A DNA stretch of 24,030 nucleotides from a virus, in the IMG/VR virus record IMGVR_UViG_3300043435_000415, positions 1 through 24,030 of that record. The stretch is one strand, 5' to 3'. Under the pieces are notes generated by a model. The model searched no databases, was not told the origin of the DNA, and saw nothing but the letters and a program-made list of their open reading frames with translations. The position numbers and the translations under genes are program-made. Shown one piece after another: positions 2,349 through 19,115 of this stretch. Each line of letters starts with the position of its first letter. The first letter of the stretch is position 1.

Positions 2349-2351
2349 TAT

Positions 2352-4763
2352 ATGGGAACAATTTTAAAAATATTATCAATAAATTACGACGGACAATTCG
2401 CCGACATTACCTTTTACCCTTGTTCGGGTGGGAGTATTAATATCGGTGAAGTTAACTTACCATATAATTATTATTCGGAAAATTACTACGGAACATATAA
2501 CATTTATTTACTTGATTCGGGTAAAACTTGTTTGTTAAATGTTCCTTGTTTAACACCTACGCCTACTCCAACAACAACAATGACATTAACTCCAACAAAT
2601 ACTCCAACACCAACAAACACACCCGCACCAAATTGTGATTTATTAGGTTTAGATATTACAACCCCAACCCCAACTCCAACACCTACAATGACACCAACAC
2701 CAAGTTCTACACCATTATTACCATTTATATCTGTGTGGAGAACAACATCTCCGTCTGAGAGTATAACATTACCTTATTACGGTTTAGATTATTCAGGAAC
2801 CATTGATTGGGGTGATGGAAATTTTTCGGCGAATACATTTGCAAATAGGACACATATTTATACAACTCCTGATGACTATGTAATAACTATTACAGGTAAA
2901 GTTAATGTGTGGTCGTTTTATTATACACCAACAAGTAAACTTAAAATAAGAGAAATAACACAGTGGGGATGTCTTAACATAACTCAACTATCATATAATT
3001 TTTATGAGTGTTCTAATTTAATATTAACAGGTGTTACTGACACTCTAAATTTATCTCAAGTGACAAATTTAACATATATATTTCGTGGATGTTCGTCTAT
3101 TACAACCATAAATAATATTAATAATTGGGATGTTTCTAACATTACAGGTATGTCAGGAATGTTTGGTCAAAGTAATTTTAACGATAACATTAATAATTGG
3201 GATGTTTCGGGAGTTGAGGATATGAGTTATATGTTCCAAGGAGCAACATCTTTCAACGAACCATTATCTGGTTGGACTGTTTCAGGTGTTACAAATATGT
3301 CGAATATGTTCCAAGGAACAACATCTTTCAACCAACCATTATCAGGTTGGAACGTTTCAAATGTTGCGTCTATGACATATATGTTCCAAAATTCACAATT
3401 TAATCAAGATATTAATAATTGGGATGTTTCAAGTGTTATTTATATGAATTATATGTTTAACGGCACACCGTTTAATCAACCGTTGTCAGGTTGGAATGTT
3501 TCAAATGTTACAAGTACGTATTATATGTTTGCTAGCACCCCATTCAATCAACCAATCGGAAATTGGGATGTCTCAAAAGTGGTTAATATGGAGGGTATGT
3601 TCCAAAACGCAACATCCTTCAACCAACCAATTAATAATTGGAATGTTTCAGGAGTTACCAATATGACATCAATACTCCAAAGCACTGATTTCAACCTACC
3701 ATTATCCGGATGGAATGTTTCAAATGTCTATAATATGACTTTTATGTTTGCCAATTCACCATTCAATCAACCAATTGGGAATTGGAATGTTTCGGGTGTT
3801 ACAAATATGGTAGGTATGTTCCAAGGAGCAACATCGTTCAATCAACCATTATCCGGATGGAATGTAAGTAACGTTAATAGTATGAGGCAAATGTTTAATA
3901 CTGCTACCGACTTTAACCAACCTATTGGGTCTTGGAATGTTTCGGGGGTTACAGATTTGGGTTATATGTTTTATGCGTCATCATTTGACTATCCATTATC
4001 TGGGTGGAATGTTTCAAAAGTTACAGATATGACTTATATGTTTGCCAATTCCCCATTCAATCAACCAATCGGAAATTGGGATGTCTCAAAAGTTAAAAAT
4101 ATGTCAGGTATGTTTGTCAATACATCATTTGATTATCCGATTGGGAATTGGACTGTTTCAGGGGTAACAAATATGAGTAATATGTTTCAAAACGACCAAT
4201 ATTTTAATCAACCATTATCTGGATGGAACGTCTCAAATGTTGTTGATATGACATCTATGTTCCGAAATTCACAATTTAATCAAGATATTAATAATTGGGA
4301 TGTTTCAAGTGTTATTTATATGAATTATATGTTCGCATCTTCCCTATTTAATCAACCATTATCCGGATGGAATGTTTCAAATGTTGGTGATATGAACAAT
4401 ATGTTTTATAATTCGGAGTTCAATTACCCTATTGGAAATTGGGATGTATCTAATGTTGTTAATATGAACAATATGTTTAATATTAATACATATTTTAACC
4501 AAGATATTGGAAATTGGAGTATATCAAATGTAACTAATTTTACTGACTTTATGTTAGGTAAAACACCATTAACATTCTCAACAACAAATTTAGATTCAAT
4601 CTATAGTGGATGGTCAACTAAAAATCCGTATACAGGAAGAACAATAAATTTTGGAAGTGCTAACTACACAATATCCGGAGGACAACCAGGTAAAAATACA
4701 TTAACGGGTTCAACTATGAGTGGAGGATATGGTTGGACAATAACTGATGGAGGAGGAATTTAA
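2352..4763 (+). CDS. Tail/adhesin-like protein with PKD-like domain and 20 BspA/DUF285 repeats
   Basis: This is an 803-aa protein. Residues 1-65 form the N-terminal domain shared with the three genes that follow (N-Y-x-G near residue 12, SGGxINIG, LPYxY, YYGTY). Two short Thr-Pro linkers follow around residues 68-125, then a PKD-like domain with WGDG (about 125-195). About 20 DUF285 repeats of ~25 residues occupy 3120-4540 (core W-x-V-S-x-V-x-x-M with FNQPLSG or FNQDI between copies). The same C-terminal cap as in the upstream gene closes the protein. The shared N-terminus is probably the part that docks to a common virion site, with the repeats exposed, but this is inference. No signal peptide is seen, which favours a virion part over a secreted host protein. 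The gene contains a 69-bp exact internal direct repeat (3389-3457 and 4265-4333). Confidence 0.88.
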   Translation: MGTILKILSINYDGQFADITFYPCSGGSINIGEVNLPYNYYSENYYGTYNIYLLDSGKTCLLNVPCLTPTPTPTTTMTLTPTNTPTPTNTPAPNCDLLGLDITTPTPTPTPTMTPTPSSTPLLPFISVWRTTSPSESITLPYYGLDYSGTIDWGDGNFSANTFANRTHIYTTPDDYVITITGKVNVWSFYYTPTSKLKIREITQWGCLNITQLSYNFYECSNLILTGVTDTLNLSQVTNLTYIFRGCSSITTINNINNWDVSNITGMSGMFGQSNFNDNINNWDVSGVEDMSYMFQGATSFNEPLSGWTVSGVTNMSNMFQGTTSFNQPLSGWNVSNVASMTYMFQNSQFNQDINNWDVSSVIYMNYMFNGTPFNQPLSGWNVSNVTSTYYMFASTPFNQPIGNWDVSKVVNMEGMFQNATSFNQPINNWNVSGVTNMTSILQSTDFNLPLSGWNVSNVYNMTFMFANSPFNQPIGNWNVSGVTNMVGMFQGATSFNQPLSGWNVSNVNSMRQMFNTATDFNQPIGSWNVSGVTDLGYMFYASSFDYPLSGWNVSKVTDMTYMFANSPFNQPIGNWDVSKVKNMSGMFVNTSFDYPIGNWTVSGVTNMSNMFQNDQYFNQPLSGWNVSNVVDMTSMFRNSQFNQDINNWDVSSVIYMNYMFASSLFNQPLSGWNVSNVGDMNNMFYNSEFNYPIGNWDVSNVVNMNNMFNINTYFNQDIGNWSISNVTNFTDFMLGKTPLTFSTTNLDSIYSGWSTKNPYTGRTINFGSANYTISGGQPGKNTLTGSTMSGGYGWTITDGGGI
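3389..3457 (+). repeat. 69-bp exact direct repeat, copy 1
   Basis: It lies within the DUF285 repeat region and is identical, base for base, to 4265-4333. It covers roughly one 23-residue repeat unit. The flanking units differ, so a recent duplication or gene conversion inside the gene is the simplest explanation. Confidence 0.9.
4265..4333 (+). repeat. 69-bp exact direct repeat, copy 2
   Basis: Second copy of the unit at 3389-3457, 876 bp downstream. The distance is a multiple of 3, so recombination between the copies would delete or add whole repeat units without breaking the frame. Confidence 0.9.
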
Positions 4764-4767
4764 TATT

Positions 4768-6981
4768 ATGAAAACTTTTGAAATATTTACAACAAATTAC
4801 GACGGGTATATCGGAGATATAAGTTATTCCGCATATACCGGAGGAACTATTAGTTTAGGTTCACAGTTATTACCATACGATTATAATACAGATTATTATT
4901 ATGGAACATATACCGTATACATACCTTTTTATAATAAAACCTGTATTTTAGATTATCCGCCACCTTCTTGGGATTTAATCGGTGATACGTTAATATTGTT
5001 CATTTCAAGTTGGAAAACCGACAATGAAGGTTTTACTAACACTAATCAAATTGGTATTGTGTTAGACCCATCAGGAACTTTTAATTTTGTAATTGATTGG
5101 GGTGATGGAAATACAGACACAATAACATCATATAGTCAACCTGAGCTTATACATACTTACAATGTTATAGGAACATATACTATACGTATGTTTGGAGTAA
5201 TTGACGGGTTTAATATAGGAAATTATGCTGGTGATTATGGTAAAATTTTAAGTGTTCAACAGTGGGGTGATGTAAAATTAATTGATGGTGGATATCAATT
5301 TTATTATTGTTTTAATTTAGATTTATCTACCGTAATCGATACTTTAGACACTTCAAATCTGACTAATATCGACGCTATGTTTGCAGAATGTTATAGTTTA
5401 ACATCTGTAAATAATATACAATCGTGGGACATTTCTAATATAACAAGTTTATCTTATTTATTCTCCGGATGTATATTATTTAATCAAAACTTAAATAATT
5501 GGGATATTTCGGGAATTACAAATATAAGTGGAATGTTTTATTTGACAAGTTATAATCAACCATTATCCGGGTGGAATGTTTCAAATGTTCAATACACAAA
5601 TTATATGTTTAGTAATTCTCAATTTAATCAACCATTATCCGGATGGGATGTTTCAAATGTTGTTGATATGAGTAATATGTTTGAGTCTTGTCCATTTAAC
5701 CAACCAATCAATAATTGGAATGTTTCAGGTGTTACAAATATGGGTTATATGTTTAATGGGTCATCATTTAATCAACCATTATCCGGATGGGATGTTTCAA
5801 ATGTTACAGATATGAGTTATATGTTCTATAACAACTCAATATTTAATCAACCTATTGAAAATTGGAATGTTTCAAATGTTACAAATATGAGTGGTATGTT
5901 CTATTACAACTCAGCATTTAACCATCCAATTGGGAATTGGAATGTTTCGGGTGTTACCAATATGAGTTATATGTTCTATTACAACTCAACATTTAACCAT
6001 CCAATTGGGGATTGGAATGTTTCGGGTGTTACCAATATGTCGGGTATGTTCTCTAATAATCAAATATTTAATCAACCATTATCCGGGTGGAACGTCTCAA
6101 ATGTTACCAATATGTCGAATATGTTCTATTCCAACTCAACATTTAATCAACCATTATCAAGTTGGACTGTTAGTAATGTAACAAATATGTCAGGTATGTT
6201 TTATAATAATAGAATATTTAACCAACAAATTGATAATTGGGATGTATCTAAAGTTACAAATATGAGTTATATGTTTTTTAACAGTTTATTTGACCAACCA
6301 TTATCCGGATGGAATGTTTCTAAAGTTACTCTTATGTTTTCCATGTTTAATAATTCTCAATTTAATCAAAATATAAATAATTGGAATGTTTCTGGAGTTA
6401 CAAATATGAGTGATATGTTCTCTAATAATCAAATATTTAATCAACCATTATCCGGGTGGAATGTTTCAAAGGTTACAAGTATGAGTAATATGTTTGCCAC
6501 TTCATCATTCAATCAACCAATTAATAATTGGAATGTGTCGGGTGTCACAGATATGGGTGCGATGTTCTATCAATCTCAATTTAATCAACCATTATCCGGG
6601 TGGAATGTTTCAAATGTTATTAGTTTGTTTAATATGTTTAGGGGTTCAAAATTTAATCAACCTATTGGAAATTGGGATATTTCTAAAGTATCTAATGTTG
6701 TGTATATGTTTTATGAAAACCAATATTTTAAACAAAATTTAGGGAATTGGAACATATCAGGTGTTACAAATTTTTATTATTTTATGGGAACTAAAAACCC
6801 TATTACTTTTTTCACATACAATTTAGATAGTATTTATAATGGGTGGGTAACAAAAAACCCACAAATAGGGATACAGATTAATTTTGGTAGTGCAAAATAC
6901 ACATCAGCTGGTTTGGCGGCAAGGACAACCCTTGTAACAACTTATTTTTGGTCAATTAGCGACGGAGGAATGTTAACTTAA
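4768..6981 (+). CDS. Tail/adhesin-like protein with PKD-like domain and 19 BspA/DUF285 repeats, linker-less
   Basis: An ATG at 4747 gives a longer frame, but the one at 4768 is preferred. It aligns the N-terminus (MKTFEIFTTNYDG) with the paralogues and lies 4 nt after the previous stop, whereas 4747 would overlap that gene. The protein is 737 aa from this start. The shared N-terminal domain is followed almost directly by a PKD-like domain (VIDWGDGNT, about 5010-5220) with no Thr-Pro linker, unlike the two upstream genes. About 19 DUF285 repeats run from about 5420 to 6770, and the C-terminal cap is more diverged than in the other two (ends in Gly-Gly-Met-Leu-Thr). AGGAGG at 4751-4756 is 11 nt upstream of the ATG, but it encodes Gly-Gly in the preceding gene, so its role as a ribosome binding site is doubtful. 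Fibre or receptor-binding role inferred. Confidence 0.87.
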   Translation: MKTFEIFTTNYDGYIGDISYSAYTGGTISLGSQLLPYDYNTDYYYGTYTVYIPFYNKTCILDYPPPSWDLIGDTLILFISSWKTDNEGFTNTNQIGIVLDPSGTFNFVIDWGDGNTDTITSYSQPELIHTYNVIGTYTIRMFGVIDGFNIGNYAGDYGKILSVQQWGDVKLIDGGYQFYYCFNLDLSTVIDTLDTSNLTNIDAMFAECYSLTSVNNIQSWDISNITSLSYLFSGCILFNQNLNNWDISGITNISGMFYLTSYNQPLSGWNVSNVQYTNYMFSNSQFNQPLSGWDVSNVVDMSNMFESCPFNQPINNWNVSGVTNMGYMFNGSSFNQPLSGWDVSNVTDMSYMFYNNSIFNQPIENWNVSNVTNMSGMFYYNSAFNHPIGNWNVSGVTNMSYMFYYNSTFNHPIGDWNVSGVTNMSGMFSNNQIFNQPLSGWNVSNVTNMSNMFYSNSTFNQPLSSWTVSNVTNMSGMFYNNRIFNQQIDNWDVSKVTNMSYMFFNSLFDQPLSGWNVSKVTLMFSMFNNSQFNQNINNWNVSGVTNMSDMFSNNQIFNQPLSGWNVSKVTSMSNMFATSSFNQPINNWNVSGVTDMGAMFYQSQFNQPLSGWNVSNVISLFNMFRGSKFNQPIGNWDISKVSNVVYMFYENQYFKQNLGNWNISGVTNFYYFMGTKNPITFFTYNLDSIYNGWVTKNPQIGIQINFGSAKYTSAGLAARTTLVTTYFWSISDGGMLT

Positions 6982-7214: not shown

Positions 7215-10200
7215 ATGAGTACAACTTTAGAAATATTAACTGCGAATTATAACGGACAATTAGCCGATATAACCTTTTTCCCTTGTTCGGGGGGGGTTAT
7301 AAATATTGGTGAAGTTACATTACCGTATAATTACGAATCCGAAAATTATTATGGAACTTACATTATTTACGTAATGTATTACGATGAAACTTGCTCGTTG
7401 GATATTCCTTGTATATCATTAACACCGACAAATACACCGACAAATACACCGACACCTACTATTACAGATACTCCAACTCAAACACCAACTCAAACTAATA
7501 CTGTTACACCAACTAATACTGGAACACCAGCACAAACCCCAACACAAACGACAACGCAGACACAAACACAAACACCTTCCAATACAGCTACACCTACTAA
7601 CACTATCACTCCAACTCAAACTCCAACTAAGACTCATACTCCCACACCAACAAATCGCCCTACAACAACACCAACAATGACACCAACAAATACTCCTACA
7701 CAAACAAATACTCAAACAAATACGCCAACAAATACGCAAACGCAAACACAAACGCAAACTCAAACCACTACACAAACTCCGACTAACACTCCAACACAAA
7801 CACAAACTCAAACACAAACACCGTCACCATTACCTCCAACAATTGGGTATTTTGAAGATTGTTGTTACCCATCTATAATATATAAAGTGGGTGGAATAAT
7901 ATATCCTGTTTTTATTGATAACTTCTATTATATAGAGACTACCGGATATAGTGGTTGTGTTAAAGCAATAAATCCTACGTCATTTAACAGTCAATATGAA
8001 ATTATTAGTTTAACTTCATATGTGAGTTGCCTTATTTGTCAATTAGACCACGAATGTATTTTACCTACACCTACACCAACTCCAACTCAAACTGTGACTC
8101 CAACGGTAACGCCAACAGTAACTCCAACAATTTCAACAACACCAACAAATACTCCTACACAAACACAAACACAAACTTCAACACCAACACAAACACCTAC
8201 CAATACACCAACAAACACTCAAACACAAACTCAAACACAAACACAAACTCAAACTTCAACACCGACACAAACACCTACTCAAACTCCGACTAACACTCCA
8301 ACCAAAACTCAAACTCCAACAACAACAACGACATTAACCGCAACACCAACTCAGACTCAAACTCCAACAAACACTCAAACACCAACAAAAACTCAAACAC
8401 CAACACCAACAAAAACAATGACTCAAACACCTACTAATACTCAAACACAAACACCAACCAAAACTCAAACACAGACGCCTACAAACACACCAGTTTGTTC
8501 AGCACCTCAAATGTTAGGTGTTACATTGTCATCAGGTTCAATTTTATCTGTTTCGATTATTCCGGGACCAAATTGTAGTGGTATTTTTATGATATATTCT
8601 TATGATAATATAAACTTTAATTCTGCTGTGGCAACTCCAAGTAACTGTACATCACCGTTTACTTTTGACTCTCTTACTACAACAGGAAATGTTTATGTAA
8701 AAGTGGGTCAATTATGTACATCAGGTGGTATTAGCGCATATTCTGAAGTTTTCCCATATTTCTTCCCAACCCCAACTCCGACACCAACACCAACAAATAC
8801 ACAAACGCCTACTAAAACTCCAACCAACACTCCAACTAAAACTCAAACCCCAACAACAACAACAACATTAACTGCAACTCCGACTCAGACTCAGACGCCA
8901 ACTAAAACTCCTACTAACACTCCAACCAAAACACAAACACAAACTCCAACTAAAACTCAAACTCCAACAACAACAACAACATTAACTGCAACTCCGACGC
9001 AAACACAAACGCCTACTAAAACTCCTACACAAACACCTACTCGAACAAACACTCCAACGCCAACAACATCGTGTGGTGTTACATTAATTTCTACCACATA
9101 TGTTTCAGGAACCACTTGGAATTATAATTTCACAACAGCAGGTTCTTGTGGAACACTTTTACCGGAATATTCGTCTGATAATATAACTTGGACTTTGGGT
9201 GGTGCAGGTGGTTGTACTTCACCTAGGTCGGCAATAACCGGTATTAATAGTGGAACAATATACTTTAGAATGACATTATTTTGTTCGTCTCTTACGGGAG
9301 TTTCAAATGTTATTACTTATGTGTTCCCATCACCAACACCTACACCTACAAGAACTCAAACACCAACACCAACAAAAACACCTACACCTACACCGACTGA
9401 AACACCACCTGGAGTAACTTGTGTATGTTATGAATTATATTGGTCTCCACCAGGTGGTCCTTTCTTTGGTTCAACAACTTTTGATTATATTGATTGTGAA
9501 GGGTTCCCTGCAAGTTCCTTTGCTAACAATATGGGTGATTCACCGAATATTTGTGCTCAAGAAAACACTATTTCATTTGGCGGTGGTGACAATTCAGGTG
9601 GTTGGCTTCCATCAATATATAATTGTTGCGCAACAAATATTACATTAGGATATAGAGTGTCAAATGCTGTATGTTCGTTACCTGGTTGGGCGTTAGTTAA
9701 TCAATGTATAAATCGTTCCGCAATTTTAGGTTTATGTGACGCAACCGAATTATATGATGATGATATATCCGGTAATTGTACCTTCGCATTTGCAGCTGCG
9801 GGTTATTATAAAACCACTGATAACTTTAGTAGAAGATATTGGGATGGAACCGCATTTACGGGTGCTTGTTTTTCGTGTGGTTGTTTAGTTGTTAATACAG
9901 TAATAACATTATCTGATGGTTCAACTAAATTAATACAAGATGTTCAAGTTAACGACATACTTAAATCTATTGATGTTTCAGGAATGCCACAACCATCAAA
10001 CGAATGGTACTCTTGGAGTAGTGACACTTTAAATTATGTAGAATCAACCTCTACAGTAATTAATTTTACAATATATGAATTTGATTCGGTTATTAATATT
10101 AATAACGATAAATTAATTGCGACTGATTCTCATAACCACGTTGTTAAACAAAATGGTGTTTGGTATATCAGAACAACATCTGATTTAAATGTTGGTGATG

Positions 10201-10337
10201 TATTATTAGATATTGACAATACTGAATTTGAAATCACATCATTAGTGACAATTACAGAATCAACAACAGTTTATAACGTTGATGTGAATAATAGTAATTT
10301 ATATTTTGCGAATAATGTCTTAACTCACAATAAGTAA
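7215..10337 (+). CDS. Large Thr-Pro/Thr-Gln-linked mosaic tail protein with C-terminal Hint (intein-like) domain
   Basis: This is a 1040-aa protein. Residues 1-65 are the shared N-terminal domain. TP/TQ linkers lie at about 72-206, 280-426, 518-617 and 706-733. Between them are a Cys-rich ~65-residue domain (about 207-275), two Ig/Fn3-like domains that resemble each other (about 427-517 and 619-704), and a Cys-rich domain (about 734-889). Residues 890-1040 form a Hint domain: Cys890 opens block A (CLVVNTVITLSDG), a TxxH motif (T970, H973) matches block B, and the last residues show the FANNVLTHN motif of block F/G, ending H1038-N1039-K1040-stop. In Hint families Cys1 and the block B His drive an N-S acyl shift. 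With one Lys after Asn there is no C-terminal partner to splice, so self-cleavage or thioester transfer at Cys890 is more likely than protein splicing. A tail-fibre role is inferred from context. Confidence 0.85.
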   Translation: MSTTLEILTANYNGQLADITFFPCSGGVINIGEVTLPYNYESENYYGTYIIYVMYYDETCSLDIPCISLTPTNTPTNTPTPTITDTPTQTPTQTNTVTPTNTGTPAQTPTQTTTQTQTQTPSNTATPTNTITPTQTPTKTHTPTPTNRPTTTPTMTPTNTPTQTNTQTNTPTNTQTQTQTQTQTTTQTPTNTPTQTQTQTQTPSPLPPTIGYFEDCCYPSIIYKVGGIIYPVFIDNFYYIETTGYSGCVKAINPTSFNSQYEIISLTSYVSCLICQLDHECILPTPTPTPTQTVTPTVTPTVTPTISTTPTNTPTQTQTQTSTPTQTPTNTPTNTQTQTQTQTQTQTSTPTQTPTQTPTNTPTKTQTPTTTTTLTATPTQTQTPTNTQTPTKTQTPTPTKTMTQTPTNTQTQTPTKTQTQTPTNTPVCSAPQMLGVTLSSGSILSVSIIPGPNCSGIFMIYSYDNINFNSAVATPSNCTSPFTFDSLTTTGNVYVKVGQLCTSGGISAYSEVFPYFFPTPTPTPTPTNTQTPTKTPTNTPTKTQTPTTTTTLTATPTQTQTPTKTPTNTPTKTQTQTPTKTQTPTTTTTLTATPTQTQTPTKTPTQTPTRTNTPTPTTSCGVTLISTTYVSGTTWNYNFTTAGSCGTLLPEYSSDNITWTLGGAGGCTSPRSAITGINSGTIYFRMTLFCSSLTGVSNVITYVFPSPTPTPTRTQTPTPTKTPTPTPTETPPGVTCVCYELYWSPPGGPFFGSTTFDYIDCEGFPASSFANNMGDSPNICAQENTISFGGGDNSGGWLPSIYNCCATNITLGYRVSNAVCSLPGWALVNQCINRSAILGLCDATELYDDDISGNCTFAFAAAGYYKTTDNFSRRYWDGTAFTGACFSCGCLVVNTVITLSDGSTKLIQDVQVNDILKSIDVSGMPQPSNEWYSWSSDTLNYVESTSTVINFTIYEFDSVININNDKLIATDSHNHVVKQNGVWYIRTTSDLNVGDVLLDIDNTEFEITSLVTITESTTVYNVDVNNSNLYFANNVLTHNK
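9882..10334 (+). other. Hint/intein-like autoprocessing domain (coding segment)
   Basis: This segment codes for residues 890-1040 of the mosaic protein. The signature residues are Cys890, the TxxH motif at 970-973, a hydrophobic LNVGDVLL strand, and the C-terminal His-Asn pair followed by a single Lys. About 150 residues is the size of a mini-intein or bacterial intein-like domain without an endonuclease insert. Confidence 0.8.
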
Positions 10338-10401: not shown

Positions 10402-12288
10402 ATGGAAAATAATGAAAATAATGATTTAACGGTTTGGCAAAGGTTATCAAGAGCCTTTGGACCAAACGCGTTATTAAATCAAGACTACCCAACATATAAG
10501 TTAGATAAGAAAGAGTTGTTAAAGACAACATCACAAGCGGAATATGAAAGAGAAAAATTACAAGCTCAACAAACATATTACCTATCTAACCAATGGACTA
10601 AGATTGAAAGTAATCTATACACTCAAGCAGTTTATTATGAACCAACTCGTTTGGCTTCATTTTACGATTATGAATCTATGGAATACACCCCTGAGATATC
10701 AGCGGCATTAGACATCTATGGTGAAGAATCAACAACTGTTGATGAGAATGGATATATGTTACAAATTTATTCTGAATCAAAAAGAATAAAATCTATACTA
10801 GCCGATTTATTCAATAACGTATTAGACGTTAATACGAATTTAACTATGTGGACAAGAAATACTTGTAAGTATGGTGATAACTTTGTTTATTTAAAATTAG
10901 ATTCAGATAAAGGTATTGTTGGTTGTATGCAATTACCAAACATTGAAATAGAACGTTTGGAAAGAGGTATGGCAGCAAAATCTGCAACTATAGATGAACC
11001 TGCAGAACACAAAGGATTAAGATTTAAGTGGAAGGCAAAAGATATGGAGTTTAACTCTTGGGAAGTTGCCCACTTCCGTTTATTAGGTGACGATAGAAAA
11101 CTTCCATACGGAACGTCAATGTTAGAAAAAGCAAGACGTATTTGGAAACAATTATTATTATCGGAAGATGCGATGTTAATTTATAGAACTTCAAGAGCAC
11201 CGGAAAGACGTGTGTTCAAAGTATTCGTTGGTAATATGGATGATAAAGATGTTGAGGCTTACGTACAACGTGTTGCAAACAAATTTAAACGTGACCAAGT
11301 TGTTGATGCTAAAACAGGTAATGTCGATATGAGATTCAACCAAATGGCTGTTGACCAAGATTACTTTATTCCTGTTAGAGACCCAGCGGCGGCATCACCA
11401 ATTGATACGTTACCGGGAGCAACAAACTTATCTGAAATTGCCGATATAGAATATATCCAAAAGAAATTATTAACCGCTCTTCGTGTTCCTAAAGCATTTT
11501 TAGGATTTGAAGAAACTGCCGGTGATGGTAAGAATTTATCATTACAGGATATTCGTTTTGCAAGAACAATCAATAAGATTCAAAAATCAATGATTGCCGA
11601 ATTAAATAAAATTGCAATCATTCATTTATTCTTATTAGGGTTTGAAGATGAGTTATCTAACTTTACGTTAGGACTAACCAATCCATCATCCCAAGCAGAT
11701 TTATTAAAGAATGACCTTTGGAAAGAAAAAATTGCATTATACCAACAAGCCGTTGCGGCAATTGCGGGTATTGCTCCGGTATCTGTATCGTGGGCTAAGA
11801 AACATATTTTAGGATTCTCTGATGAGGAAATCAAACTTGATTTACAACAACAAAGAATTGAGATGGCTGTCGGAGCTGAATTAACAAATACGGCAACTAT
11901 CATAACACATACAGGTATCTTCGATAATATCGATAAATTATATGGTAACCCTGCATCCGGAGCAACTGCCGGTGGTGCGGCACCATCATCCCCACCACCA
12001 CCGGGAGGTGGAGGAGGTTTCGGCGGAGGTGGAGACTTAGGTGGAGGAATGGAAGATTTAGGTGGACCTGAACCAGGACCTGAACCGGGTGGACCTGAAC
12101 CGGGTGGAGCCCCTGAGGCGGCAGCTCCCGAAGCAGAAGTAACTCCTGAATCATTTAATAGAGATAATTTAAAAATATTGGTAGAAAGAAGTAATATGAC
12201 AGAAGATGATTCATACATTGATTTATCCAAAGGTGGAAACTCTTTAGGAGAAATTGAAGCTCAATTAGGTAAACTTCTAAAAGATTAG
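10402..12288 (+). CDS. Portal protein, T4 gp20-like
   Basis: The 628-aa protein resembles the T4-type portal family, the dodecameric head vertex ring through which DNA is packaged and to which the neck joins. Recognisable stretches are the N-terminal region with YEPTRLASFYDYESM and the acidic YTPEISAALDIY helix (about residues 80-105), the core with LPYGTSMLEKARRIWKQ (about 233-250), APERRVFKVFVGN (about 268-280), the DYFIPVRD segment, and the LLTALRVPKAFLGFEE region (about 353-370). The length is above the ~524 aa of T4 gp20. The extra length is mostly a Gly/Pro/Glu-rich low-complexity tail (about 517-580) followed by a short helical end. Its place at the head of the 20-21-22-23 series supports the call. 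No Shine-Dalgarno sequence precedes the ATG. Confidence 0.92.
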   Translation: MENNENNDLTVWQRLSRAFGPNALLNQDYPTYKLDKKELLKTTSQAEYEREKLQAQQTYYLSNQWTKIESNLYTQAVYYEPTRLASFYDYESMEYTPEISAALDIYGEESTTVDENGYMLQIYSESKRIKSILADLFNNVLDVNTNLTMWTRNTCKYGDNFVYLKLDSDKGIVGCMQLPNIEIERLERGMAAKSATIDEPAEHKGLRFKWKAKDMEFNSWEVAHFRLLGDDRKLPYGTSMLEKARRIWKQLLLSEDAMLIYRTSRAPERRVFKVFVGNMDDKDVEAYVQRVANKFKRDQVVDAKTGNVDMRFNQMAVDQDYFIPVRDPAAASPIDTLPGATNLSEIADIEYIQKKLLTALRVPKAFLGFEETAGDGKNLSLQDIRFARTINKIQKSMIAELNKIAIIHLFLLGFEDELSNFTLGLTNPSSQADLLKNDLWKEKIALYQQAVAAIAGIAPVSVSWAKKHILGFSDEEIKLDLQQQRIEMAVGAELTNTATIITHTGIFDNIDKLYGNPASGATAGGAAPSSPPPPGGGGGFGGGGDLGGGMEDLGGPEPGPEPGGPEPGGAPEAAAPEAEVTPESFNRDNLKILVERSNMTEDDSYIDLSKGGNSLGEIEAQLGKLLKD

Positions 12289-12310: not shown

Positions 12311-13027
12311 ATGAACTTCGGTATATTAAAAACAAAAATAGAAAGAGTGTTGTTAGAATCATACGCTAACGACACATTTAAAGACGAAATAAAAAATTTC
12401 AAAAAATATGTTTTAGAAAACAAAAACATAAGTAAATTATTTTATTTATACGATGAATTAAATTCTCCAAAAGCATTAAGTGAATCTTACGCCAGAGAGT
12501 TTATTAACGAAAGTATTAAAATGTATGAGAACACAATCAATAAAATCAAGCAATCTGATTTAAATAAAATAAAATCTTGGGTTGGTAATAAACAGATAGA
12601 GAATCAATATGAGACTATCGATACGTTGTTTTCTTCAGATATATTAACGATTGAATCTAAAATTAAATGTAGAAACATTCTGTCAGAATCTCTTAGAAAA
12701 TTACCGGTGGTGAAAACAGAAGGGATTGATTTACCGTTAACAACAATGGTAAGTGTTGCAAACAAAACTATTAAAAGTTATATTGATGGTTTAACTGAAT
12801 CTGACAAAAAAGAATTAATGTCTTTATTGTCTGAAGATGATTCAACATTGAATGAAAAATACGTTACACTTAAAGAAGGTGTAGTTACGAAACTAACGGA
12901 AATGAAGAATGCTAGCACTGATTCAACAATGCAAATAAGAATTGAGGATACTATCTCAAAAGTAATTTCTGAAAAATACGACAAACTTACGTACTTCAAA
13001 CTTAAAAACCTTAAAGAAAATCTTTAA
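12311..13027 (+). CDS. Unknown protein between portal and prohead protease
   Basis: A 238-aa, mostly helical, charged protein with no family I recognise. In T4 the small prohead-core genes 67 and 68 lie between genes 20 and 21, so a core or chaperone role is possible from position alone. The N-terminus (MNFGILKTKIERVLLE, then Ser) ends in a Leu-Leu-Glu site like those cut by gp21-type proteases after residue 16, which would fit a head-targeted protein. The stop codon overlaps that of the convergent bS21 gene (shared TTAA at 13024-13027). The ATG follows an A-rich leader with no Shine-Dalgarno sequence. Confidence 0.8.
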   Translation: MNFGILKTKIERVLLESYANDTFKDEIKNFKKYVLENKNISKLFYLYDELNSPKALSESYAREFINESIKMYENTINKIKQSDLNKIKSWVGNKQIENQYETIDTLFSSDILTIESKIKCRNILSESLRKLPVVKTEGIDLPLTTMVSVANKTIKSYIDGLTESDKKELMSLLSEDDSTLNEKYVTLKEGVVTKLTEMKNASTDSTMQIRIEDTISKVISEKYDKLTYFKLKNLKENL

Positions 13028-13218
13028 TTATCGTCTGATTTAAATTTTTTCTGAACATACTTAGCTTTTGAAAGACCATCACGTTTAATTACTGATGGTT
13101 TTTTAAATTCTTTTCGTTTTGATAATTCAGAGCTTTGACGGGTTTTAATTACTTTACTTTTATAGAGTTTTAGAGCTTTCTCAATCGTAATGTGATTATT
13201 TAATTTTACTATTAGCAT
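13024..13218 (-). CDS. rpsU: Phage-encoded ribosomal protein bS21
   Basis: The 64-aa basic protein matches bS21 along its whole length: MLIV start, IEKALKLYKSKVIKT, an EL..RKEFKKPSVIKR core (residues 31-46) and AKYVQ near the end. Bacteroidota bS21 shows the same landmarks (ALK.YK.K..KT, EL..R..F.KPS..KR, A.YVQ). bS21 sits on the 30S platform next to the 16S rRNA 3' end. In Flavobacterium johnsoniae it helps hide the anti-Shine-Dalgarno sequence, and from memory Tyr54 there takes part; Tyr54 is present here at the same number. Phage-borne bS21 genes are known from several aquatic phages. The gene runs against the surrounding head genes and has its own leader with a perfect AGGAGG. It may replace or compete with host bS21 in ribosomes. 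Confidence 0.93.
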   Translation of the reverse strand: MLIVKLNNHITIEKALKLYKSKVIKTRQSSELSKRKEFKKPSVIKRDGLSKAKYVQKKFKSDDN

Positions 13219-13234
13219 ATACTACATATATCTC

Positions 13235-13240
13235 CCTCCT
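13235..13240 (-). promoter_or_regulatory. Perfect Shine-Dalgarno AGGAGG upstream of bS21, with AUG-UAG start-stop
   Basis: On the minus strand AGGAGG is followed after 7 nt by ATG-TAG (13227-13222) and then, in the same frame, TAT and the bS21 ATG at 13218 (16 nt from the SD). No other gene in the window except the coincidental case at 4751 has such an SD. In Bacteroidota, rpsU is known as one of the few genes with a strong SD, used for autoregulation by ribosomes lacking bS21. Confidence 0.75.
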
Positions 13241-13276
13241 ACAAAAAAGTTTTGACATTACCCATAAAAACACCTA

Positions 13277-13292
13277 TTATTTTTAAAAATAA
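13277..13292. promoter_or_regulatory. 16-bp AT palindrome in divergent gap
   Basis: TTATTTTTAAAAATAA is a perfect palindrome in the 94-bp gap between the divergent bS21 and 156-aa genes, 21 nt before the latter's ATG. It resembles the TATTTATAAATA element in place and composition. It could be a variant promoter or an operator. Confidence 0.3.
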
Positions 13293-13312
13293 ACAGGAAA
13301 ATATGAAAATTA

Positions 13313-13783
13313 ATGAAAAAGGGAAAAACTTCTCTACTACACGGGTTCAAAACAGCGAAGATTGTTTATGGAACGGTAGACTCAATCAAACTTAAATCAC
13401 TTTACTTAAACATCCAAACTTGGGTTGAACCAATATACGAATGTGATAATTGGACAAGAACAGTTCTTAACCTAAGTAGGAGTATTAAACACTCAATCTA
13501 CGAGTCAATAAACAAAGATATATTCAACGACAAATTTATTGTAGACTTAGATTTAAGGTCCAGCGGACTCAATCTAAACAAAAAATCGTTTATGAACCTT
13601 GAAATAAATTTTTATTTAATACAAGAAGATTTGGATTTCAAATGTAACGAAATAAAAGAATCATTACAACAAATAACAAAACAAATTTTTAAAGATAATT
13701 TTTTAGATAATGAAAATTTTAACTTTTATCTAACCAAAAACAGTAAAATCACAGAAGAATTGTTACAAACCGAGAATGTTTAA
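13313..13783 (+). CDS. Unknown 156-aa protein upstream of the prohead protease
   Basis: I do not recognise a family. The protein has a mixed alpha/beta pattern, with a strand-rich middle (KFIVDLDLRSSGLNL, then MNLEINFYL) and an Asn/Lys-rich C-terminal third. The start at 13313 is the only ATG in frame, since an in-frame TGA lies at 13304-13306. An out-of-frame ATG 10 nt upstream opens a 30-codon frame that overlaps the gene. It is transcribed with the head cluster, and the protease gene begins 23 nt after its stop. A structural or neck role is possible from position only. Confidence 0.75.
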   Translation: MKKGKTSLLHGFKTAKIVYGTVDSIKLKSLYLNIQTWVEPIYECDNWTRTVLNLSRSIKHSIYESINKDIFNDKFIVDLDLRSSGLNLNKKSFMNLEINFYLIQEDLDFKCNEIKESLQQITKQIFKDNFLDNENFNFYLTKNSKITEELLQTENV

Positions 13784-13806: not shown

Positions 13807-14532
13807 ATGAATTTAAGAATATTACAACCAAGTGAATCAGGGAAAGGTATATTAGTTGAATACGATGCTGGGTATATTAACCCAAATGATAATCGTAACG
13901 AAACATTAATTAGAGAATCTAGCGAAACTCTTGACCACACTAAACCAATTGAGTTTTATGCCGTATTACAAAAATATGATACCCCTAATAGAAATGGTAG
14001 ATTATATCCTGAACGTATATTAAAAAGAGAGGCGGAGAATTATAAAAAAATGATTAAAAAGGGAACAGCCCTATCCGAGTTAAATCACCCGGAATCATCT
14101 TTAATCGATTTAGATAGAGTTTCTCACGCAATCACCGAAGTATGGTGGGAAGGTAATGTCCTAATGGGTAAAATAAAACTACTTACATCACCGGGATATC
14201 ACGAAAGTGGTATTTGTTCAACCAAAGGTGACTTAGCAGCTAACTACCTAAGACAAGGAGTTACATTAGGTATCTCATCAAGAGGTGTAGGTTCCCTTAA
14301 AAAGATTGGTGAACAAAATGAAGTTCAAGACGATTTTGAATTAATCTGTTTTGATTTAGTATCATCACCATCAACCCCGGGAGCGTATCTATTCTTAAAT
14401 AAAGAGGATAAACAACTATACGATGAGAACTTAGAAGAAGAGAAAAAAATGAGTGTTGAGAGACACGTTGGTGATTCCGGAAATAAATCGCTTGACTTAA
14501 TGAAAAAATTAAACGATTATTTGGGTTACTAA
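13807..14532 (+). CDS. Prohead core protease, T4 gp21-like
   Basis: The 241-aa protein matches the T4-type prohead protease, a serine protease that matures the head by cutting scaffold and capsid proteins after (L/I)xE sites. Visible marks are the early block YDTPNRNGRLYPERIL (residues 58-72), the ELNHPESSLIDLDRVSH block with the likely catalytic His94, the segment GVTLGISSRGVGS with the likely nucleophile Ser157 or Ser158, and FDLVSSPSTPGAYL (182-195). The length is close to T4 gp21 (212 aa), with an added charged C-terminal tail. It acts inside the prohead on the acidic scaffold and on the capsid protein encoded downstream. No SD is present; an AT-rich TATTTATA element precedes it. Confidence 0.92.
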   Translation: MNLRILQPSESGKGILVEYDAGYINPNDNRNETLIRESSETLDHTKPIEFYAVLQKYDTPNRNGRLYPERILKREAENYKKMIKKGTALSELNHPESSLIDLDRVSHAITEVWWEGNVLMGKIKLLTSPGYHESGICSTKGDLAANYLRQGVTLGISSRGVGSLKKIGEQNEVQDDFELICFDLVSSPSTPGAYLFLNKEDKQLYDENLEEEKKMSVERHVGDSGNKSLDLMKKLNDYLGY

Positions 14533-14826: not shown

Positions 14827-14900
14827 TATTTATCAATGTATAAAAACCTAACTCAATTTAAGTAAATTTTAAACTTTTTTTGAATTAGGAGATATTTATA
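14827..14900 (+). promoter_or_regulatory. Tandem GGAGATATTTAT promoter-like elements upstream of scaffold
   Basis: Two copies are present: TATTTATC at 14827-14834 and TATTTATA at 14893-14900. The dodecamer GGAGATATTTAT is identical in both. The second lies 31 nt before the scaffold ATG. Placed between a terminator and the scaffold-capsid pair, they are good candidates for strong late promoters. Confidence 0.5.
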
Positions 14901-14923: not shown

Positions 14924-16435
14924 ATGGCAAAAGAAAAATCTTTAGTTGAAGAGGCTATCATCCAAATGAAAAACTTGGAAGAAGCGGTAGCTGAAAATGC
15001 AAAAGGAATACTTGCTTCTACAATGAAACAAGAAATCAAAGACCTAGTAAAAGAATCTCTAACTGAACAAGACGAGATTAACCCTGATGACGTTGAAGTG
15101 GATGAACCTATGGGTTCTGATGATATTGCCGATATTGATATGGGTGATGATTCAGATGAAGAAGGTGATGAAATGGATACTGATGATACTGATGACGAAG
15201 AAGATATGGACTTTGGTGACGAAGAAGATATGGACGACGAGGAAGACACTATTGACTTAACTGACGCAGACGATGAAGAAGTACTTAGAGTATTTCAACT
15301 TATGGGTCCGGATGACAACATTGTCGTAACAAAAGACGACAAAGGAAACACTCACCTTAAAGATGAGGAAACCGGTAAAGAGTATATGATTGTTGGTGAA
15401 AGTGAAGAAGAAGAATTTGAAATGTCTGAAGAATGGGACGAAGAACTTGAAGAAGATGAGATGGGTGACGAATCTATTGAATCAATCGTTGAGAGAATGT
15501 TCGGTTCTGATGATGAAGACGAAGACGAAGTGGAATTTGATTTTGAAGAGTTTGACGAATCTGATGATATGGACGATGAAGAAATCGTTTATGAAATCGA
15601 AATGGATGAAGAAGACGAAGAAGAATTAGGTGAAGAAGAAATGGATGATGAATCTATTACTGAAGCTAAAATGTCTATCAAACCAAAAGGTGTTGGGATG
15701 GGTAATCAATCAAAATTTAAATTTAACAAATCACCTAATCAAGGAACAGGATTTAAAACTAAAATGAAAGAGGCTCCAAAATCTGTAGGAACAGGTAAAG
15801 CGAAATTCGAGTATAAAGAAGGTGAAAATTCAGGAACTAAATTAGGAACAAACAAAGTTGTTAAGAAAACTGAAACAAAAGAAGGTTCAACTAGAAAACC
15901 AATGGTTAAAAAAGTTGAAGGTAAAAAAGAAGAGACAAAAGAGGCTGTAAGAACTTTAGGTTCAGGGTCTAACTTTAGAAAAGGTGGTTTACCAAAACCA
16001 AGAGCTCATTCAAGTTTTAATACTGCTATCAAAGAAAGTAACACTAATTCAGAGTTACAAGTTCTTAGAGAAAAAAACGAAGAATACAGAAAAGCACTTA
16101 ATGTTTTCAGAAGTAAATTAAACGAGGTTGCAATCTTCAATTCAAACTTGGCTTACGCTACACGTTTGTTCACTGAACATTCAACATCAAAACAAGAAAA
16201 AATTAACATTTTAAGAAGATTTGATGGTGTTGAAACTATCAAAGAATCTAAAAATCTATATCAGGTCGTTAAAAATGAATTATCCTCAGGAACTAAAACT
16301 CAAACTATGAACGAGTCAATTGAAAGAACAATCGCAAAATCACCTTCTACAGGAGCGGTTAACTTACTTGAATCAAAAACATATGAGAATCCACAGTTCT
16401 TAAGAATGAAAGATTTAATGGCAAAAATAAAATAA
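14924..16435 (+). CDS. Prohead core scaffold protein, gp22-like (highly acidic)
   Basis: The 503-aa protein has an N-terminal helix (residues 1-48), a very acidic Asp/Glu-rich region (about 50-246), a Lys/Gly-rich basic region (about 250-365), and a C-terminal coiled-coil-like part with LREKNEEYRKALNVFRSKL (about 381-400). T4-type cyanophage and related scaffold proteins have the same position and helical C-terminal portion. It would form the internal core on which the capsid shell assembles and then be degraded by the protease. Several (L/I)xE sites are present, such as I-T-E before Ala near residue 248 and L-L-E before Ser near the C-terminus. Call based on position, acidity and coiled coil. 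Confidence 0.8.
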   Translation: MAKEKSLVEEAIIQMKNLEEAVAENAKGILASTMKQEIKDLVKESLTEQDEINPDDVEVDEPMGSDDIADIDMGDDSDEEGDEMDTDDTDDEEDMDFGDEEDMDDEEDTIDLTDADDEEVLRVFQLMGPDDNIVVTKDDKGNTHLKDEETGKEYMIVGESEEEEFEMSEEWDEELEEDEMGDESIESIVERMFGSDDEDEDEVEFDFEEFDESDDMDDEEIVYEIEMDEEDEEELGEEEMDDESITEAKMSIKPKGVGMGNQSKFKFNKSPNQGTGFKTKMKEAPKSVGTGKAKFEYKEGENSGTKLGTNKVVKKTETKEGSTRKPMVKKVEGKKEETKEAVRTLGSGSNFRKGGLPKPRAHSSFNTAIKESNTNSELQVLREKNEEYRKALNVFRSKLNEVAIFNSNLAYATRLFTEHSTSKQEKINILRRFDGVETIKESKNLYQVVKNELSSGTKTQTMNESIERTIAKSPSTGAVNLLESKTYENPQFLRMKDLMAKIK

Positions 16436-16467: not shown

Positions 16468-18339
16468 ATGGGAGCATTATTAGAATCAGGATTAGTTGGT
16501 AACATCGGGTTAAAACACCTTAAAGTTATCAAAGAAGACACAATCAACAAATGGGATAAATTAGGATTCCTAGAAGGTCTTAAAGGACACATGAGAGAAA
16601 ACGTAGCTCAGTTATATGAGAACCAAGCGTCTTTCTTAATAAACGAAGCTACAGGTGAAGGTTCAAACGGTTCATTCGAAACGGTTGTATTCCCTATCGT
16701 AAGAAGAGTATTCTCTAAATTACTTGCGAATGAAATCGTATCAGTACAAGCTATGAACTTACCAATCGGTAAATTGTTCTTCTTCGTACCTAAAATTCAA
16801 GGTTACCAATCAGGTCAAGAAACTATCTTAGGAACTCAATTAGGTGGTGGTACTCACTACGGACCAATTGGTGCGGCTGATGGACAAACTGCGGCTGATG
16901 GTCAATCAGGAGCTGGTTACACAGGAGCAAACGCATTCAAGAAAAATCTTTATGATTTATTCTATGAAGGAAACGAAGGTCAATTAGACCCTCCAGGATT
17001 GTTTGACTACTCTAAAGGACAATGGTCGGCAGTTACTAAACCAACAACAGTTATGGTTTGGTCAAATGGTAGTTTAGTTGTTGCTGACGCAACTGCATTA
17101 GCTAACCAATTCAATGGAAAAAACATTAGAAAAGTAATCGTAGCATTATCAGGATTCACAACTGCTGGTACAGGTAAATTAATCGGACCAGACGGTAATG
17201 AAGTTGATACTGAAACTTTCTTATCTGATTTAAGAATCTACAGTGATTCTACAACTGCATGGACTTCAACAACATCACCTTGTAGTGTTGTAAGTGGGTC
17301 TACCGGAATAAACTCATTATTGTTTAGAGTTGTTACTCAACAATATGGTGAAGGTATCGTTTCAGGATTAAACGGAAGAGGAACTACATCATTTGCAACT
17401 ACAGGTAATAACGGTACTTACAATGATACTTGTTCTCCTGCAGGAATCATCTACTTAGAAGTTGATTTATCTTGTCCAACTTGTCCTTCTTGTGGTGACA
17501 CATTAGACGGTTATACAGGAACAACTATCGGAGTATTACCATCAACTGGGTTTACTGCTGTTTACAGACGTTACGCTGATATGGAATTTGAAGATAAAAT
17601 CGGTGAGGTTTCTTTCGAATTAGATTCAGTTACTGTATCTGTTACAGAAAGAAAATTAAGAGCACAATGGTCTCCTGAGTTAGCTCAAGACGTTGCAGCT
17701 TTCCACAACATCGATGCTGAGGCTGAATTAACAGCTTTATTATCTGAACAAGTTGCGGCTGAAATCGACCGTGAAATCTTAAGAGATTTACGTAAAGGTG
17801 CGGCATGGAACTTACGTTGGGATTACAATGGTTGGAGAAGAATCTCTTCAACAACAAACTATACACAAAAAGATTGGAACCAAACTTTGATTACTGCAAT
17901 TAACCAATTGTCAGCACAAATCCACAAATCTACTTTAAGAGGTGGAGCTAACTGGATTGTAGTATCTTCTGAGGTTTCAGCGATTATGGATGACTTAGAA
18001 TACTTCCACGTATCTAATGCTTCACCTGAACAAGACCAATATAATATGGGTATTGAAAGAGTTGGAACATTAGCAGGACGTTACCAAGTATATCGTGACC
18101 CTTACTTCCCAGCTAACCAAGTGTTAATTGGACACAAAGGAACATCGTTACTTGATACAGGATACATCTACGCTCCGTATGTACCATTACAATTAACACC
18201 TACAATGTACAACCCATTCAACTTTACACCGATTAAAGGTATAATGACTCGTTACGCGAAAAAGATGGTGAATAATAGATTTTACGGCAGAATTACTGTA
18301 GATGGTGTTAGAACATTCGATTTAAGAGAATTGAGATAA
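16468..18339 (+). CDS. Major capsid protein, T4 gp23-like
   Basis: The 623-aa protein matches the T4-type capsid family (HK97 fold). Landmarks are SFETVVFPIVRRVFSKL and LANEIVSVQAMNLPIGK (about residues 69-102), EVSFELDSVTVSVTERKLRA (about 380-400), and the C-terminal region with IDREILRDLRKGAAWN, the YQVYRDPYFP segment and YAPYVPLQLTPT. Ile58-Asn59-Glu60 before Ala61 fits the (I/L)xE prohead-protease site; T4 gp23 is cut after Glu65. The protein is about 100 residues longer than T4 gp23 and carries an inserted stretch (about 245-360) that holds all five cysteines seen (C272, C322, C336, C339, C342). The gene is followed by a strong terminator. The leader is A-rich without an SD. Confidence 0.94.
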   Translation: MGALLESGLVGNIGLKHLKVIKEDTINKWDKLGFLEGLKGHMRENVAQLYENQASFLINEATGEGSNGSFETVVFPIVRRVFSKLLANEIVSVQAMNLPIGKLFFFVPKIQGYQSGQETILGTQLGGGTHYGPIGAADGQTAADGQSGAGYTGANAFKKNLYDLFYEGNEGQLDPPGLFDYSKGQWSAVTKPTTVMVWSNGSLVVADATALANQFNGKNIRKVIVALSGFTTAGTGKLIGPDGNEVDTETFLSDLRIYSDSTTAWTSTTSPCSVVSGSTGINSLLFRVVTQQYGEGIVSGLNGRGTTSFATTGNNGTYNDTCSPAGIIYLEVDLSCPTCPSCGDTLDGYTGTTIGVLPSTGFTAVYRRYADMEFEDKIGEVSFELDSVTVSVTERKLRAQWSPELAQDVAAFHNIDAEAELTALLSEQVAAEIDREILRDLRKGAAWNLRWDYNGWRRISSTTNYTQKDWNQTLITAINQLSAQIHKSTLRGGANWIVVSSEVSAIMDDLEYFHVSNASPEQDQYNMGIERVGTLAGRYQVYRDPYFPANQVLIGHKGTSLLDTGYIYAPYVPLQLTPTMYNPFNFTPIKGIMTRYAKKMVNNRFYGRITVDGVRTFDLRELR

Positions 18340-18434: not shown

Positions 18435-19115
18435 ATGAAGAAAATACTATTAGAAAAATCAGTTGTTGATGAAATTTTGAGATTATATAATGATGAGATG
18501 TTAGGCTCTCCATCTATATCTGAAAAATTAAATATTAACAAACAAGTTGTGTTACGAACATTAAAAGAAAATGGTGCTATTGTCGGTATCTCCGGTAGAA
18601 AATATAAGGGTGGGAAATCTGAATCAGATAAACGACATTATCTTAAAAATAGAGAAAAACGATTACAATATTTTTCTGATTGGCAAAAAGATAATAGAGA
18701 CCGTCTAAATGATTACCATCAAAAATGGAGAGAAAAAAATATTGATAAACATAGAGAATATAAACGTAAGTATGAAAAACATCGTAAAGATACTGACCCC
18801 CTCTATAAACTAATCACCAATTTCAGAACTGCAATATGGACAGTATTAAAAGAAAGTAATGTAGACAAATATGGACATTACTTTGATGTTCTACAATATA
18901 GTCCGGAGGAATTGATTAATCATTTAGAAAAACAATTTAAGGATGATATGACGTGGGATAACTATGGAATTTGGCACGTGGACCATAAACTACCAATTAC
19001 ATCTTTTGATATACAAGAGATGGGTGACGAGGAATTTATGAGATGTTGGTGTTTGGATAACCTTCAACCAATGTGGGGTGAGGAGAATATTCGTAAATCA
19101 AATAAAGTTTTTTAA
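18435..19115 (+). CDS. HNH endonuclease with N-terminal helix-turn-helix
   Basis: The 226-aa protein begins with a helix-turn-helix-like part (about residues 8-48, with SISEKLNINKQVVLRTLKENG). A Lys/Arg/Tyr-rich helical linker follows (about 65-120). The C-terminal HNH nuclease has DDMTWDNYGIWHVDHKLP (171-187, with H181, D183 and H184), the DNLQPMW segment (Asn209) and Asn223 near the end. This arrangement is typical of free-standing phage homing endonucleases that cut related genomes lacking the gene. It sits just after the capsid terminator as an insertion between transcription units, and the capsid gene itself is intact. The basic composition differs from its neighbours. Confidence 0.88.
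   Translation: MKKILLEKSVVDEILRLYNDEMLGSPSISEKLNINKQVVLRTLKENGAIVGISGRKYKGGKSESDKRHYLKNREKRLQYFSDWQKDNRDRLNDYHQKWREKNIDKHREYKRKYEKHRKDTDPLYKLITNFRTAIWTVLKESNVDKYGHYFDVLQYSPEELINHLEKQFKDDMTWDNYGIWHVDHKLPITSFDIQEMGDEEFMRCWCLDNLQPMWGEENIRKSNKVF

Follow-up and report, generated by a model that had tools for sequence, protein, structure and literature searches.

A bS21 gene carried by a phage of the Bacteroidota is quite probably transcribed from a late promoter of the same type as that of the scaffold/major head protein (MCP) operon and translated from a near-leaderless mRNA. The AGGAGG hexamer in front of it would then be promoter spacer rather than a Shine-Dalgarno (SD) sequence, and bS21 would be supplied late and independently of SD pairing. 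Judged from the leaders of related phages, the hexamer is real but not conserved, and a role as a translation switch is improbable. The window analysed here is a single virus record of 24,030 bp with a GC content of 32.9%.

The phage bS21 gene and its neighbourhood

Gene calls followed a simple ORF rule. The ORF at 13024-13218 on the minus strand (stop codon included) encodes a protein of 64 aa that scored 29.5-30.4 bits against PF01165 in profile searches, above the curated cut-off of 27. Its closest solved relative, and best PDB match, is bS21 of the Flavobacterium johnsoniae ribosome (7JIL, 7jil_z, E 5.4e-8), to which residues 1-57 align without gaps, with the Bacteroidia-type Tyr at position 54. 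By these matches the product is a genuine phage copy of bS21, of a kind already known from large Bacteroidota phages, and the first-pass annotation had named both the family and Tyr54 correctly. This gap-free alignment from the first residue onwards confirms the annotated start. A start at an ATG further upstream was also considered, and is ruled out in the window by a TAG codon and by the alignment of host bS21 from the annotated start. No viral relatives were found with a Bacteroidales-type bS21 as query.

The gene sits reversed between two hypothetical genes inside the portal/protease/MCP region, set against the head genes as had been described. The plus strand encodes a portal protein (10402..12288; phrog_213, E 4.9e-68), a head maturation protease (13807..14532; phrog_207, E 6.3e-44) and the MCP (16468..18339; phrog_138, E 6.5e-67). 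An acidic protein (14924..16435, plus strand), for which a family match was not found, is called scaffold by position alone, as it occupies the T4-type scaffold place between protease and MCP. The convergent neighbour of bS21 (12311..13027, plus strand, 238 aa), whose stop overlaps that of bS21 by 4 nt, and the divergent neighbour (13313..13783, plus strand, 156 aa) gave no above-cut-off match in family profile searches, and both accompany bS21 in more than 30 relatives. No TerL was detected in the 24-kb window.

Jumbo phages of freshwater Bacteroidetes with a reversed bS21 among portal, protease and MCP genes were described by Chen et al. 2022; their bS21 has an aromatic residue 54, is expressed late together with MCP and is proposed to enter host ribosomes (PMC9723584). 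The idea that the phage protein re-specialises host ribosomes, also raised by the first-pass annotation, is thus supported as an already published hypothesis. The bS21 of the Pelagibacter phage HTVC008M is reported, in work cited there, to enter E. coli ribosomes (PMC9723584). The present phage resembles that group in its reversed bS21 between two hypothetical genes and in its aromatic residue 54. The window is a 24-kb fragment and the contigs of its relatives measure 272 and 308 kb, compared with AT-rich genomes of 293-331 kb, GC 31.0-33.7% and TerL similarity of about 70% or more in the published group (PMC9723584). The bS21 leader is untreated in the available text of that paper; its twin promoter and SD-like tract are described here.

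The AGGAGG tract in front of bS21

The hexamer AGGAGG (13235..13240, minus strand) lies within a hypervariable tract from -21 to -15 of bS21 (13233-13239). The leader of bS21 is the only AGGAGG-bearing one in the window and the only one among the 316 ORFs of the 272-kb relative. Its duplex with the 16S tail, which we take to be GAUCACCUCCUUUCU, reached -12.5 kcal/mol, the best value in the window and the second best in the 272-kb relative. The earlier claim that this is the only convincing SD holds for the uniqueness of the hexamer; 'only' is somewhat too strong, since the leaders of ORFs 2352 (-12.0 kcal/mol) and 4747 (-11.0 kcal/mol) also pair well. Nearly all phage genes were without an SD in the leader pairing survey.

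If AGGAGG were part of the mRNA, it could be an SD preferred by bS21-free ribosomes, with the phage copy autoregulated like host rpsU. In Flavobacteriales, the host relies on an SD for bS21; the anti-SD core is CCUCC, and an extended SD has been defined by a criterion of -13 kcal/mol (McNutt et al. 2023, PMC9976891). The host control consisted of 88 rpsU leaders, drawn from the class to which an uncultured Flavobacteriales genome belongs, and 15 of these carried an extended SD (<= -13 kcal/mol) with 8-13 nt between GGAGG and ATG. The phage gene resembles the SD-autoregulated rpsU of Flavobacteriales (PMC9976891) in its length, its Tyr54 and its upstream AGGAGG. The phage leader pairs with an energy near the host threshold, the column consensus of the tract in the close clade is AGGAGG, and the alternative register AGGAGGGAG gives nine pairs at a spacing of 12 nt, inside the host range. 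At -12.5 kcal/mol, however, bS21 of the window falls short of the extended-SD threshold, by a margin that is small given that our own energy settings were used, and in the canonical register the end of GGAGG lies 16 nt from the bS21 ATG.

Comparison among relatives showed that the tract is not conserved. None of the 41 distinct bS21 leaders of the phage clade reached -13 kcal/mol and 11 reached -9 kcal/mol (median -5.9, several near -1.5), and bS21 leaders from other phage clades ranged from -1 to -5 kcal/mol; because many relatives are near-copies, the leaders should not be counted as independent. Divergence between closely related pairs was 0.24 differences per site over the seven positions -21 to -15. 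It was 0.006 at -39 to -22 and 0.045 at -14 to -5, with 0.069 for the fourfold sites of the bS21 ORF and 0.127 for the spacer farther upstream. Leaders with shuffled columns paired as strongly as those observed or more strongly, which argues that anti-SD pairing is not maintained beyond base composition. An SD kept as composition with a shifting register was considered and finds no support in the column shuffling. On a tree built from neighbouring DNA, the label of a 'strong' SD switches four times or more.

The first-pass annotation had proposed an SD device like that of host rpsU, and this did not stand. Related phages keep the gene, many of them without an SD. Set beside host rpsU leaders, the tract of the phages pairs less strongly, is hypervariable, mostly lies further from the ATG than 8-13 nt and is probably not transcribed. 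AGGAGG is separated from the bS21 start by an in-frame ATG-TAG, and the scaffold promoter contains the same tract at a place where an SD role is impossible (see below). An SD role is therefore unlikely; we keep a modest share of belief in it because the sole AGGAGG leader precedes bS21, the very gene that the host itself translates with an SD.

That start-stop (13222..13227, minus strand) suggests a different use of the hexamer, in which AGGAGG would guide ribosomes with an exposed anti-SD to the ATG-TAG 7 nt downstream. Ribosomes would terminate on this one-codon decoy ORF and reinitiate after another 9 nt, so that less bS21 is made or its synthesis is gated. The spacing of 7 nt is ideal for an SD, and the in-frame ATG is kept in 38 of 38 aligned leaders. 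The codon that follows varies, however, being a stop (TAG, TAA) in some lineages and sense (TAT, TTA) in others, and the ATG is absent from the more distant members L044, L045 and L049. Its conservation needs no translation, because it belongs to the box GATATATG, and we regard a decoy ORF as very improbable. Equally doubtful is a combined device, in which a transcribed AGGAGG and ATG-stop would sense a shortage of bS21 while SD strength and stop codon are retuned between lineages.

AGGAGG might also have arisen by chance in a spacer under no constraint, serving neither promoter nor translation. Although no other multi-base segment of the leader diverges as much between close pairs, the tract keeps its purine-rich composition in the close clade and has a counterpart in the scaffold promoter, so that some constraint on composition is likely and pure chance is a rather improbable account.

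A probable promoter type shared with the scaffold/MCP operon

The reading that we prefer, AGGAGG as promoter spacer, draws on the flanks of the tract. Upstream lies the conserved promoter element AAACTTTTTT (13243..13252, minus strand), in a conserved block at 13240-13257, TGTCAAAACTTTTTTGTA; the conserved flanks together read AAACTTTTT-N9..11-GATAT[A/T]TNT. A search for AAACTTTTT, 8-16 nt and GATAT[AT]TnT retrieved exactly two sites in each of two jumbo genomes and none in five shuffles. The two sites lie ahead of bS21 and ahead of the scaffold/MCP operon. In the window, the twin of the bS21 promoter is AAACTTTTTTTGAATTAGGAGATATTTATA (14871..14900, plus strand), in which AGGAG (14887-14891) stands 32 nt before the scaffold ATG at 14924. 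Relatives have TTAGGAGATATTTATA, TTGGGAGATATTTATA and similar sequences at the scaffold copy. Pairing of the scaffold tract with the anti-SD has a median of -7.3 kcal/mol (13 distinct sequences), compared with the -5.9 kcal/mol of bS21 leaders and with -2.1 kcal/mol for late-box promoters overall (n=157). At 32 nt from the ATG, the scaffold purine tract cannot be an SD. The simplest account of these sequences is that the purine tract would be part of a promoter subclass, of which AGGAGG is one variant in the lineage of the window.

The scaffold twin was first seen in a search with GTCAAANNTTTT...GATATAT. As a general regulon element this pattern was rejected, for it gave few hits, about twice the reversed control with three mismatches allowed, and no clear family of sites.

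The downstream flank contains a late-box-like sequence, GATATATGTA (13223..13232, minus strand), which is conserved in the clade and spans -14 to -5 of bS21, with the putative promoter box TATATGTA at -12. The two jumbo relatives of 272 and 308 kb were scanned for promoter boxes. The late box ATATTTAT[AT] was about 30-fold enriched in their leaders, its positions peaking at -11 to -13 (sharply at -11) and at -21 to -25, and the host-type -7 element TAYnTTTG peaked exactly at -12. Host-type TAnnTTTG elements in the phage relatives bear out the Bacteroidota-type host suggested earlier. In the gene leaders of G001 (L215-L228) and G004 (L229-L244), the late box TATTTAT[AT] stands at -11 to -13 in 50 genes and TAYnTTTG at -12 in 15 genes.

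In F. johnsoniae, the -7 element spans T-12 to G-5 and transcription starts 4-5 nt further on (PMC6847099). Because of this geometry, a box at -12 predicts a leaderless mRNA, and TA-like signals about 12 nt ahead of start codons were likewise read as leaderless by Zheng et al. 2011 (PMC3160421). The fixed spacing of 11-12 nt suggests, from position in the genome sequences, that many mRNAs of these jumbo phages are leaderless, early and late. In its position, 11-12 nt before the start, the putative bS21 box is like that of TA-led leaderless genes (PMC3160421) and the -7 element of sigma-ABfr (Baez et al. 2019, PMC6847099). Unlike the TAnnTTTG of sigma-ABfr, it resembles the phage-specific late box of the TATTTATA type. 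A literature search on TATTTATA late promoters found nothing relevant.

T4-type late promoters have the sequence TATAAATA. The phage promoters are like these in having an AT-rich 8-nt box ahead of head genes, but their box is TATTTATA, those of bS21 and scaffold add the AAACTTTTTT element, and the late sigma factor that would read them is hypothetical.

Several points weigh against AGGAGG as promoter spacer. The bS21 box, TATATGTA, has two mismatches from the late consensus ATATTTATA, and boxes with two mismatches are only about 1.5 times as frequent as control at that position. The AGGAGG consensus of the close clade and the fact that the lone AGGAGG leader among 316 ORFs is that of bS21 point the same way, and a promoter further upstream would place AGGAGG in the bS21 mRNA. 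In favour of the promoter reading, outgroup phages have an exact late box and no SD in their bS21 leaders, at -25 to -27 in L367, L368, L370, L372, L376, L377 and L378 and at -13 in L391.

Between bS21 and the divergent gene lies the near-palindromic TATTATTTTTAAAAATAAAC (13275..13294, plus strand), which is conserved in relatives. By its sequence it is probably a late-type promoter of the divergent gene, and it could serve either direction. The promoter of the divergent gene as sole cause of the conserved GTCAAAAC block was set aside, though not wholly. A TTGACA-17-TATTAT arrangement is found on the plus strand at this block; such hexamers are unused by the primary sigma factor of Bacteroidota (PMC6847099), and outgroup bS21 leaders retain GTCAAAACTT upstream of their late box. 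In L370, L372, L376, L377 and L378, members of other phage clades, a perfect inverted repeat, AGTCAAAACTTGACT, stands about 20 nt ahead of the exact late box, and the GTCAAAAC block forms one of its halves. This repeat may be an operator for bS21.

Proposed supply of bS21 and other genes of the window

Under the promoter reading, AAACTTTTTT, the purine-rich spacer and the GATAT late box would follow one another ahead of bS21, in the same architecture as at the scaffold/MCP operon. The box at -12 from the ATG would yield a leaderless or nearly leaderless bS21 mRNA, and AGGAGG would lie upstream of the transcript because a promoter box at that position predicts a near-leaderless mRNA. Synthesis of bS21 would then be late and timed with that of scaffold and capsid; it would need no SD and would escape host bS21 autoregulation. 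The phage protein, with Tyr54 kept, might replenish the bS21 of host 30S subunits or substitute for it. On bS21-replete subunits the anti-SD would stay sequestered, which would favour the SD-less and leaderless mRNAs of the phage. In host ribosomes, the absence of bS21 impairs translation of SD-less mRNAs and improves that of the SD-bearing host rpsU mRNA (McNutt et al. 2023, PMC9976891).

As bS21 is the commonest phage-encoded ribosomal protein, its dosing bears on the remodelling of host ribosomes by phages. If the promoter reading is true, supply of bS21 would be coupled to scaffold and capsid synthesis, and the SD-based feedback of the host would be bypassed. A caution also follows for the reading of single genomes: a lone AGGAGG can belong to a promoter instead of marking a ribosome-binding site, as shown by the presence of this tract at a position where ribosome binding is impossible.

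Other parts of the window and of the collection gave further observations. At 402-6981 of the window, three large ORFs contain DUF285-type repeats (phrog_17273, phrog_3649) and P/T-rich linkers, with ten PF03382 stretches in ORF 2352-4763; going by these repeats, they are possibly adhesin-like virion proteins. A protein of 1040 aa (7215-10337) has long PT/QT repeats and an intein/Hint-like C-terminal part, to which PF14890 and PF07591 match weakly, below their cut-offs. One viral-collection contig, L366, is perhaps host DNA or a prophage: its bS21 is 77% identical to that of a Flavobacterium-type host, and the genes that neighbour bS21 in the phages are absent. Immediately after the MCP gene, an Endonuclease VII/HNH-type gene (18435-19115; phrog_1035, E 2.3e-11) probably encodes a homing endonuclease.
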